A stretch of DNA of 52,761 nucleotides from contig JAFVRC010000021.1 of NCBI GenBank assembly GCA_017504485.1, positions 1 through 52,761 of the forward strand. The letters run 5' to 3'. This document shows positions 42,486 through 45,517 of this stretch, one piece after another (positions within the stretch are counted from its first letter, which is position 1; the number at the start of each line of letters is the position of its first letter). A program made the translations under genes and the position numbers. The notes beneath the pieces are model-generated. The model was given only the letters and a program-made list of their open reading frames with translations. It did no database searches and was not told the origin of the DNA. Source of the DNA: Alistipes sp. (GTDB lineage Bacteria; Bacteroidota; Bacteroidia; Bacteroidales; Rikenellaceae).

Positions 42486-43199
42486 ATGAAAGGAACACTA
42501 TACCTTATACCCTGCCCCATCGCCGAGGAGACTCTGCCCTATGATGTGACTCCCGAGGCAAATCGGGCTATCATCGACTCGCTCGACTACTTCATTGTCG
42601 AGAATACGCGCTCGGCACGTCGCTTCCTCGCGAAGGCCGGTATATCGAGGCGCATCGACGACCTCGAGTTTGTCGAGCTCAACGAGCACTCCGTAGCCGG
42701 TCGTGACATCGAGCGTATGGTGGCTCCGATTATGGAGGGACGCTCGGCAGGTGTCATCTCGGAGGCGGGAGTGCCGGCCGTTGCCGACCCCGGGCAACTC
42801 GTCGTCGAGTTGTGCCACCGTCGCGGCATTCGCGTAGTGCCACTCGTCGGACCATCGTCTATCATCATGGCCGTGATGGCCTCAGGGCTCAGCGGACAAT
42901 CATTTGCCTTCAATGGCTACCTGCCCATCAAAGAGCCCGAGCGGTCACGCACCATAAAGCGGCTCGAGGCACGCTCGAAGGCCGAGCAACAGTCGCAAGC
43001 CTTTATCGAGGCACCCTATCGCAATGCGAAGCTCGCCGAGCAACTCGTGCGCACCTGTGCCCCGACAACACGCCTCTGCATCGCCTGCAACCTCACCTCG
43101 CCATCCGAGTATATCCGCACACGCACATGCGCCGAGTGGCTCAAAGAGGGGCTGCCCGACATTCAGAAGCGACCCGCGATATTTATAGTGCAAGGATAA
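42486..43199 (+). CDS. SAM-dependent methyltransferase, RsmI/tetrapyrrole-methylase family
   Basis: 237 residues from the ATG at 42486, four bases after murF-alr; a start at 42468 would overlap it. The family signatures are LYLIPCPIAEE, FIVENTRSARRFL, GVISEAGVPAVADPG and VVPLVGPSSIIMAVMASGLSGQ. RsmI methylates the ribose of C1402 in 16S rRNA. This protein is the divergent Bacteroidota paralogue type (the second Gly-rich motif reads YLIPCPIAEE rather than YVVATPIGN), so its target may differ. It is cytoplasmic. A 16-bp perfect hairpin follows its stop. Confidence 0.85.
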   Translation: MKGTLYLIPCPIAEETLPYDVTPEANRAIIDSLDYFIVENTRSARRFLAKAGISRRIDDLEFVELNEHSVAGRDIERMVAPIMEGRSAGVISEAGVPAVADPGQLVVELCHRRGIRVVPLVGPSSIIMAVMASGLSGQSFAFNGYLPIKEPERSRTIKRLEARSKAEQQSQAFIEAPYRNAKLAEQLVRTCAPTTRLCIACNLTSPSEYIRTRTCAEWLKEGLPDIQKRPAIFIVQG

Positions 43200-43200
43200 A

Positions 43201-43236
43201 CAAAAGATGCGATGGAATTGTCCATCGCATCTTTTG
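43201..43236. terminator. Bidirectional terminator between the methyltransferase and aspS
   Basis: CAAAAGATGCGATGGA (43201-43216) pairs perfectly over 16 bases with TCCATCGCATCTTTTG (43221-43236) around the loop ATTG. A-run and T-run flank both ends, so it can terminate both convergent genes. Confidence 0.9.
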
Positions 43237-43254: not shown

Positions 43255-45009
43255 TTACTTCTCGAACGGAACGAGCGAGAGATAGAGCTCTTCGAGCTGT
43301 GCGGGGTCTATCTGCGATGGGCCGTCGAGCATCACATCGCGACCGGCATTGTTCTTCGGGAAGGCGATGAAGTCGCGAATAGATTCCACGCCGCCGAAGA
43401 GCGAACAGAGACGGTCGAAACCGAAGGCGAGGCCTCCGTGTGGCGGTGCGCCAAACTTGAAGGCGTTGATGAGGAAGCCGAACTGCTCCTCGGCCTTCTC
43501 CGGCGTGAAGCCGAGGCACTTGAAGATGAGCGATTGGAGTTTCGGGTCGTGGATACGAATCGAACCACCACCGACCTCGACACCGTTGCAAACAAAGTCG
43601 TAGGCATTAGCACGCACACGTGCAGGGTCGCTCTCGAGGTACTCTACGTCCTCTGCCTTTGGCGAGGTGAATGGGTGGTGCATAGCGTAGAAACGCTCGG
43701 TCTCCTCATCCCACTCGAACATCGGGAAGTCGATAACCCACAGCGGTGCAAACTTCTTCGGATCGCGCAGGCCCAAACGCTCGGCAACCTCCAAACGAAG
43801 TGCACAAAGTTGCGTAAGAGCCTTATACTTCTTGCCACATAGAATGAGGCAGAGGTCGCCTGCCTTCGCGCCCAGACGCTCGGCGATGGCCTGCAACTCC
43901 TCGGGCGAGAAGAACTTGTCGATAGACGACTTTATGCCACCCTCCTCAACGCGAATCCACACAAGGCCCTTGGCGCCCACCTGTGGTCGCTTGACGAAGT
44001 CCGTGAGGGCATCTATCTGCTTGCGTGTATAGGCTGCGCAGCCCGTAGCAGCGAAGCCGACAACGTACTCCGCATCATCGAATACCGAGAACGAGTGGCC
44101 GTGTGCCAAGTCGGTAATATCCGAGAACTCCATACCGAAGCGCACGTCCGGCTTATCCGAGCCGTACTTCTCCATCGCCTCGCTCCACGGCATACGGCGG
44201 AATGGCTCCGAGAACTCGACACCCAAGACACTCTTGAACATATGCTTGGCCTAACGCTCGAAGATTTCGAGTACATCCTCCTGATGAATGAAGGCCATCT
44301 CGCAGTCTATCTGCGTGAACTCCGGCTGACGGTCGGCACGCAAATCCTCGTCGCGGAAGCAACGCACAATCTGGAAGTAGCGGTCGTAGCCCGCAACCAT
44401 CAAGAGCTGCTTCAACGTCTGCGGCGACTGCGGCAGAGCGTAGAACTCGTTAGGATTCATACGTGAAGGCACTACGAAGTCGCGTGCGCCTTCGGGTGTA
44501 GATTTAATGAGGTACGGAGTCTCAATCTCCAAGAAGCCCTCCGAGTCGAGGAAACGGCGAATCTCTTGCGCCATCTTGTGACGCAGAATCATATTGCGCT
44601 GCAATGGTGGGCGGCGCAGGTCGAGATAGCGGTACTTCATACGAAGGTCATCGCCGCCGTCCGAGTGCTCCTCGATGGTGAATGGAGGCAGTACGGCCTC
44701 GTTGAGAATATTGATGCTCTCGGCCACAACCTCCACTTCGCCTGTAGGCATCTTCGGGTTCTTCGACTCACGCTCGATGACGCGGCCCGTCACCTGCACA
44801 ACAAACTCGCGGCCGAGCTTCGCAGCCGCCGCCTTGGTAGCCTCGTCCGAGTGCTCCTCAACGACAATCTGCGTGATGCCGTAGCGGTCGCGCAGGTCGA
44901 TAAAAGTCATTGCACCGAGGTTGCGCACCTTCTGCACCCAACCGGCCAATGTCACTGTCTGTCCGACATTTGTGGCACGCAATTCGCCACATGTATTACT
45001 TCTGTACAT
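43255..45009 (-). pseudogene. aspS: Aspartyl-tRNA synthetase interrupted by an in-frame TAG
   Basis: From the ATG at 45009 (MYRSNTCGE) to the stop at 43255 there are 584 codons, the normal bacterial AspRS length, but codon 253 is TAG (44251-44253). The N-terminal part holds the OB-fold anticodon domain ([23 protein letters not shown]) and class II motif 2 ([20 protein letters not shown]). After the stop the frame continues at once with [17 protein letters not shown] and ends with motif 3 ([14 protein letters not shown]). Everything else is conserved, with no frameshift or gap. AspRS is essential, and no second copy lies in this window. A sequencing or assembly error, a strain-specific mutation with suppression, or readthrough are all possible. 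Neither half alone should work. Confidence 0.85.
44251..44253 (-). other. In-frame amber codon in aspS
   Basis: CTA on the plus strand, TAG in the aspS frame, directly after ...VLEIFER and before AKHMF. A single base change would restore Leu (TTG), Trp (TGG), Gln (CAG), Lys (AAG), Glu (GAG), Ser (TCG) or Tyr. Related proteins have Met or a similar residue around here (FEGMAKHLF in Bacteroides as I recall). Confidence 0.9.
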
Positions 45010-45030
45010 AGTTTTGTATAATGTTTTTTG

Positions 45031-45070: not shown

Positions 45071-45517
45071 ATGGAAGTAAATCGCGAAATCGACGAAAAA
45101 TATATGCGAATGGCTCTCGAAGAGGCAAAACTTGCCCTCGAAGCCGATGAAGTACCCATTGGTGCCGTCATCGTGGCGGATGGTCGCATCGTGGGGCGCG
45201 GGCACAATTTGGTCGAGACGCTAATTGACGTGACGGCCCACGCCGAAATTCAGGCGATAACCGCCGCCTCGGCAACCCTCGGGGGCAAGTACCTCAACGA
45301 ATGTACGCTCTATGTGACGGTCGAGCCTTGCGTGATGTGTGCCGGTGCGCTGGCGTGGAGCCAAATAGGCCGTGTGGTCTATGGTGCGGCCGACGAGAAG
45401 CGCGGTTTTGCACGTCTTGAAGGCAATATTCTGCATCCGCGCACCGTTCTGTCATCGGGAGTGTTGGCCGACGAATGCGAGAGTATGATGAAGGATTTTT
45501 TTGCAAAATTACGATAG
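45071..45517 (+). CDS. tadA: tRNA adenosine(34) deaminase-type nucleoside deaminase
   Basis: 148 residues. The cytidine-deaminase fold has its zinc ligands in HAE (residues 57-59, with the catalytic Glu59) and PCVMC (86-90). The sequence [22 protein letters not shown] and [10 protein letters not shown] fit TadA, which converts the wobble adenosine of tRNA-Arg to inosine, though guanine deaminase-like relatives share most motifs. It is cytoplasmic. It is divergent from aspS, another tRNA gene function. Confidence 0.85.

Follow-up and report, generated by a model that had tools for sequence, protein, structure and literature searches.

The locus considered here raises the question of whether an aspartyl-tRNA synthetase gene (aspS) with an amber codon inside its reading frame reflects a genuine genetic state, and if so, how an Alistipes cell would live with it. 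The gene lies in a 52,761-nucleotide stretch of DNA (the window), which is contig C19 of an assembly of 1,923,496 bases in 48 contigs, estimated to be 82% complete with 1.19% contamination.

The aspS frame and its internal stop

The amber codon is present in the sequence as first described: CTA at 44251-44253 of the + strand reads as TAG on the - strand, which is codon 253 when the ATG is counted as 1, and residue 254 in the numbering of P0001. Translation of the - strand over 43255-45012 runs from M (45009-45007) to K with this single internal stop and a terminal TAA at 43255-43257, bearing out the full-length frame of 584 codons announced in the preliminary description (Table 1).

Table 1. 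Coordinates of aspS, its parts and its divergent neighbour in the window
Feature	Position	Strand	Characteristics
aspS, bacterial-type aspartyl-tRNA synthetase, 584 codons	43255..45009	-	One internal TAG, ends in TAA; NF001750 and TIGR00459
In-frame TAG, codon 253 (ATG = 1)	44251..44253	-	Trp codon in 28/29 same-genus aspS loci read, Met in 1/29
Upstream fragment, 252 codons	44254..45009	-	PF01336 and PF00152 positions 3-134
Downstream open frame, 328 codons, from ATG four codons after TAG	43255..44241	-	PF02938 and PF00152 positions 141-307
tadA-like divergent neighbour	45071..45517	+	NF008113 TadA, E 2.1e-38

In profile searches, the frame with X at the stop matched NF001750 (E 2.4e-249) and TIGR00459 (E 4.4e-222), the latter with 738.6 bits against a curated cut-off of 373.85, while the pieces taken singly fell below that cut-off (368.1 bits upstream and 350.2 bits downstream). 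The 251 residues that precede the stop (initial Met omitted) and the 328 residues from the next ATG each matched both families at adjoining positions, 4-255 and 261-586 of the NF001750 profile, in line with the initial claim that the gene is conserved on either side of the TAG. The closest solved chain to the product is 6wom_A (E 5.7e-260).

The Pfam domain tRNA-synt_2, covered over its positions 3-134 and 141-307, is interrupted between positions 134 and 141 at the stop. The upstream fragment holds the OB-fold anticodon-binding domain, the beginning of the class II catalytic domain and what we take to be motif 2; the downstream frame, which opens at an in-frame ATG nine bases past the TAG, holds the GAD insert and the remaining catalytic domain. 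The stop thus lies between this presumed motif 2 and the GAD insert, and motif 3, again by our own assignment of the label, falls after it, as had been proposed. The uninterrupted frame through motif 3 that is expected of a bacterial AspS is therefore broken here.

Nucleotide similarity extends over both aspS and its tadA-like neighbour (131.8 bits, below the NF008113 cut-off of 150) in three relatives (L038, L067 and L039), indicating that the locus is orthologous. On the other side, a 40-base inverted repeat at 43197-43236 (other-strand match 90% identical) separates aspS from the convergent adjoining gene and is probably a terminator shared by the two.

The site and the gene in relatives

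The 11 named loci nearest in aspS come from ten Alistipes assemblies and one Rikenellaceae assembly, nine of the 11 labelled as ruminant gut. Among full-length aspS genes, the nearest shares 92% identity in protein and 84% in DNA (86% in DNA for the partial gene L067), so that no second genome of the same species was seen among the relatives compared.

We read the site in 29 same-genus loci, fetched from among the 34 same-genus genomes whose listed match covers most of aspS. The Trp codon there is TGG and the single Met codon ATG, and none of the 29 carries a stop. Among the named loci, 79 of 80 reach the site (L120 falls short of it) and show TGG in 10, ATG in 43 and Leu codons in 26, again with no stop; these two sets partly overlap, since 40 compared sequences gave 35 distinct proteins. 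The use of Met and Leu elsewhere suggests that the site demands a large hydrophobic residue rather than Trp as such. TAG and TGG are a single transition apart (G-to-A, or C-to-T on the + strand).

The same picture was obtained over wider samples. A listed match over most of aspS was found in 56 of 60 relatives, none of which has a stop; G032 has a partial, stop-free match, and G022, G047 and G052 are without a good one. Across the order, 371 of 393 genomes matched aspS and, among the best 150 of these matches, stop flags fell on three (G000, which is the present genome, G389 and G204). The flagged stop of G389 proved to be the terminal one, at position 582, and the realigned G204 sequence ends stop-free at 582, where its flag likely marks the terminal stop; both were rejected as internal stops. 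As judged from these alignments, the aspS TAG is private to this genome among the relatives examined. In two genomes of the genus there is an additional, partial aspS (G036:C78:2-1144, 85% identical to the present gene; G017:C7:3619-4752, 82%), perhaps through contamination or strain redundancy.

Codon differences revealed no relaxed selection on either side of the stop. Against the nearest relative, synonymous and non-synonymous differences number 77:17 before the stop and 112:28 after it, compared with 84:30 and 110:40 on the two sides of the site in an intact pair (L038-L039). At otherwise invariant columns (the stop column, being non-invariant, was left out) the gene carries four private changes, inside the range of 0-5 seen in the remaining 34 distinct proteins though towards its high end, and accelerated change was rejected. 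Based on these ratios and this count, aspS appears to have been under normal constraint until very recently, or to be so still. Two of the changes are adjacent, V to I and E to H at 44284-44289 (P0001 residues 242-243), in columns where the remaining 34 distinct proteins do not vary and 11-12 residues before the stop; they could be either genuine substitutions or the mark of a short, poorly sequenced stretch.

Decoding of TAG and rival explanations

We examined TAG usage in 452,761 bases of this genome (the window and 20 further stretches). There, 271 long frames end with TAA in 132 cases, TAG in 120 (the aspS stop included) and TGA in 19, which shows none of the avoidance of TAG expected under amber recoding. 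The release factor 1 gene prfA is stop-free and scores 490.7 bits against a cut-off of 423.25, with no sign of RF1 loss or change. A second, weaker match in the same search holds one internal TGA and is presumably prfB, whose frameshift site we assume to account for this codon. TAG is thus a normal stop in this genome and genome-wide recoding is unlikely, as the preliminary description had it.

The search for a tRNA with a CUA anticodon, one of the checks it had proposed, came back empty: none was found among the 35 tRNA matches of an assembly that is 82% complete and has no tRNA-Trp. Of these matches, 33 were typed by ARAGORN and two, partial at contig ends, by eye (Glu and Lys); ARAGORN run on the 20 stretches gave 10 tRNAs, all among the RF00005 matches. 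The 35 include no tRNA for Trp, Asp, Tyr or Ile. For Trp this absence reflects an assembly gap, because nusG was not found in the assembly either, and tRNA-Trp (CCA) adjoins nusG in 5/5 relatives (nusG scored over its cut-off in 5/6). Searching a relative's tRNA-Trp region against this assembly returned nothing longer than 17 bases.

We also scanned the same 452,761 bases for other interrupted genes with a permissive two-sided coding test that takes the best of six frames. It recovered 1232 of 1458 TGG codons when these were scored as stops, and replaced an earlier scan (five stops) whose control called only 549 of 1405. Forty-seven stops passed, that of aspS included; the aspS stop has high coding scores on both sides, a similar level being reached by at least two others. 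An ATG follows within 10 codons in 35 of the 46 other cases, as in tandem genes, and likewise in aspS (fourth codon). A Pfam search of eight of the 46 pairs, both high-scorers included, revealed no family running across the stop (in three of the eight, one side had no family), and the other 38 pairs were judged by eye. It is therefore the continuation of one family across its stop, and not the scan rule alone, that sets aspS apart. With 38 of 46 pairs judged by eye, this sample showed no further gene clearly interrupted by TAG, and a few more interrupted genes are possible.

With almost one fifth of the genome missing by estimate, there is room for amber suppression, a two-part enzyme or another AspRS. 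It is nevertheless unlikely that a living Alistipes-like species has this stop fixed and obtains its only AspRS through natural suppression of the amber codon or by translating it in two separate pieces. If true, it would be surprising, as an essential synthetase would then be made by suppression or in split form in an ordinary gut bacterium.

Taken singly, the idea that a genuine stop is decoded by a suppressor from the unassembled part of the genome (for example a CUA tRNA-Trp or a phage-borne amber suppressor) draws on the gap that explains the missing tRNA-Trp and nusG together, where a tRNA-Trp with a CUA anticodon could lie. Yet the tRNA-Trp of all five relatives is identical over 72 shared bases with anticodon CCA, and a strong suppressor would be expected to extend many proteins in a genome with an intact prfA and so many TAG-terminated frames. 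Together with the lack of CUA among the 35 tRNA matches and of another clearly TAG-interrupted gene in the sample, this makes a suppressor distinctly unlikely.

We consider it quite improbable that aspS is a true pseudogene here and that the missing part of the genome encodes another AspRS, of standard or archaeal type. The incompleteness of the assembly would leave space for such a gene, but the aspS copy has no relaxed constraint, and a second high-identity piece occurs in only two of 60 relatives (the partial ones of G036 and G017). This assembly, at 82% completeness, yielded no further AspRS: its remaining class IIb matches are weak (26-39% identity) and correspond to lysS (623.2 bits; cut-off 427.6) and asnS (627.5 bits; cut-off 342.6). 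To this extent aspS is, as originally noted, the only copy in view.

Alternatively, ribosomes could terminate at the TAG and begin again at the ATG four codons on, so that parts of 252 and 328 residues form a working two-piece AspRS, consistent with the long frame which that ATG opens and with the normal constraint on the downstream half. However, the same Met is found in all 29 same-genus loci and so is no adaptation for restart, the break cuts through the class II catalytic domain, and a stop at the site is absent from every relative read; a split enzyme is thus highly improbable. Finally, programmed or context-driven readthrough yielding enough enzyme, an option of the preliminary description for which we found no evidence, is scarcely credible, since beyond the intact downstream frame nothing speaks for it: over 130 bases around the stop and downstream of it, folding is no stronger than in shuffled sequences (z -0.15), the window has no Rfam match at gathering threshold, and with a stop at the site in 0/29 same-genus loci there is no conserved stop with a stimulatory element.

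Origin of the stop and comparison with known systems

Altogether, we favor a simpler origin, in which the TAG would be a single G-to-A change of the relatives' Trp codon in an otherwise intact, orthologous gene: a wrong base or a minor-strain base that entered the consensus of this fragmented assembly or, at most, a null allele of very recent origin in a mixed population. We put the probability that it is one of these at roughly 0.75, because the change is a single transition in an incomplete assembly, is absent in the relatives examined, and comes with neither visible decoding machinery nor traces of decay. As an uncompensated allele of a living population, we infer that it does not exist. 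Among the options first put forward, assembly error and a mixed population are therefore the ones that our results favor, indirectly.

Two observations bear on an error or minor-variant origin from the other side. First, the 453 kb sample holds no clear broken frame besides aspS, so the assembly does not look error-ridden. Second, a lone TAG also occurs in the aspS of one of the 80 named loci, L085 (MAG RUG14229), at its position 2493, which corresponds to P0001 position 167. No CUA tRNA was found among the 30 typed of 47 matches in that genome. Isolated aspS stops thus occur in other draft assemblies; the L085 stop could also be read as amber tolerance in these bacteria, which would count against an error.

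In the partial texts consulted on in-frame stops in metagenome-assembled aspS, amber suppression in Bacteroidales and split synthetases, we recognised no matching case. As far as the available part of PMC9523058 describes it, the amber recoding (code 15) of crAss-like phages resembles the present case in having in-frame TAG in a Bacteroidales-type gut community. It differs in that here a single site is affected and TAG elsewhere acts as a normal stop, no CUA tRNA was found, and the residue of relatives is Trp, not Gln. The aspS stop is mainly a caution, being a single base in a single incomplete assembly, and is not to be taken as recoding.

Another parallel is offered by lone stops in pseudogenes and draft genomes, which frequently fall at UGG codons. 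According to the portion of PMC8629427 available, in-frame stops in yeast pseudogenes most likely arise via transitions from codons like UGG, and biased the inference of yeast codes towards Trp. The aspS stop shares with these the single transition from UGG, the conserved frame and the incomplete assembly (PMC8629427, same portion), whereas those cases concern yeasts and pseudogenes and the gene here is expected to be essential. Measured against bacterial AspS itself (TIGR00459 / NF001750), the gene differs by one TAG at codon 253, and it is alike in its whole-frame family match, OB-fold, class II catalytic domain and GAD insert.
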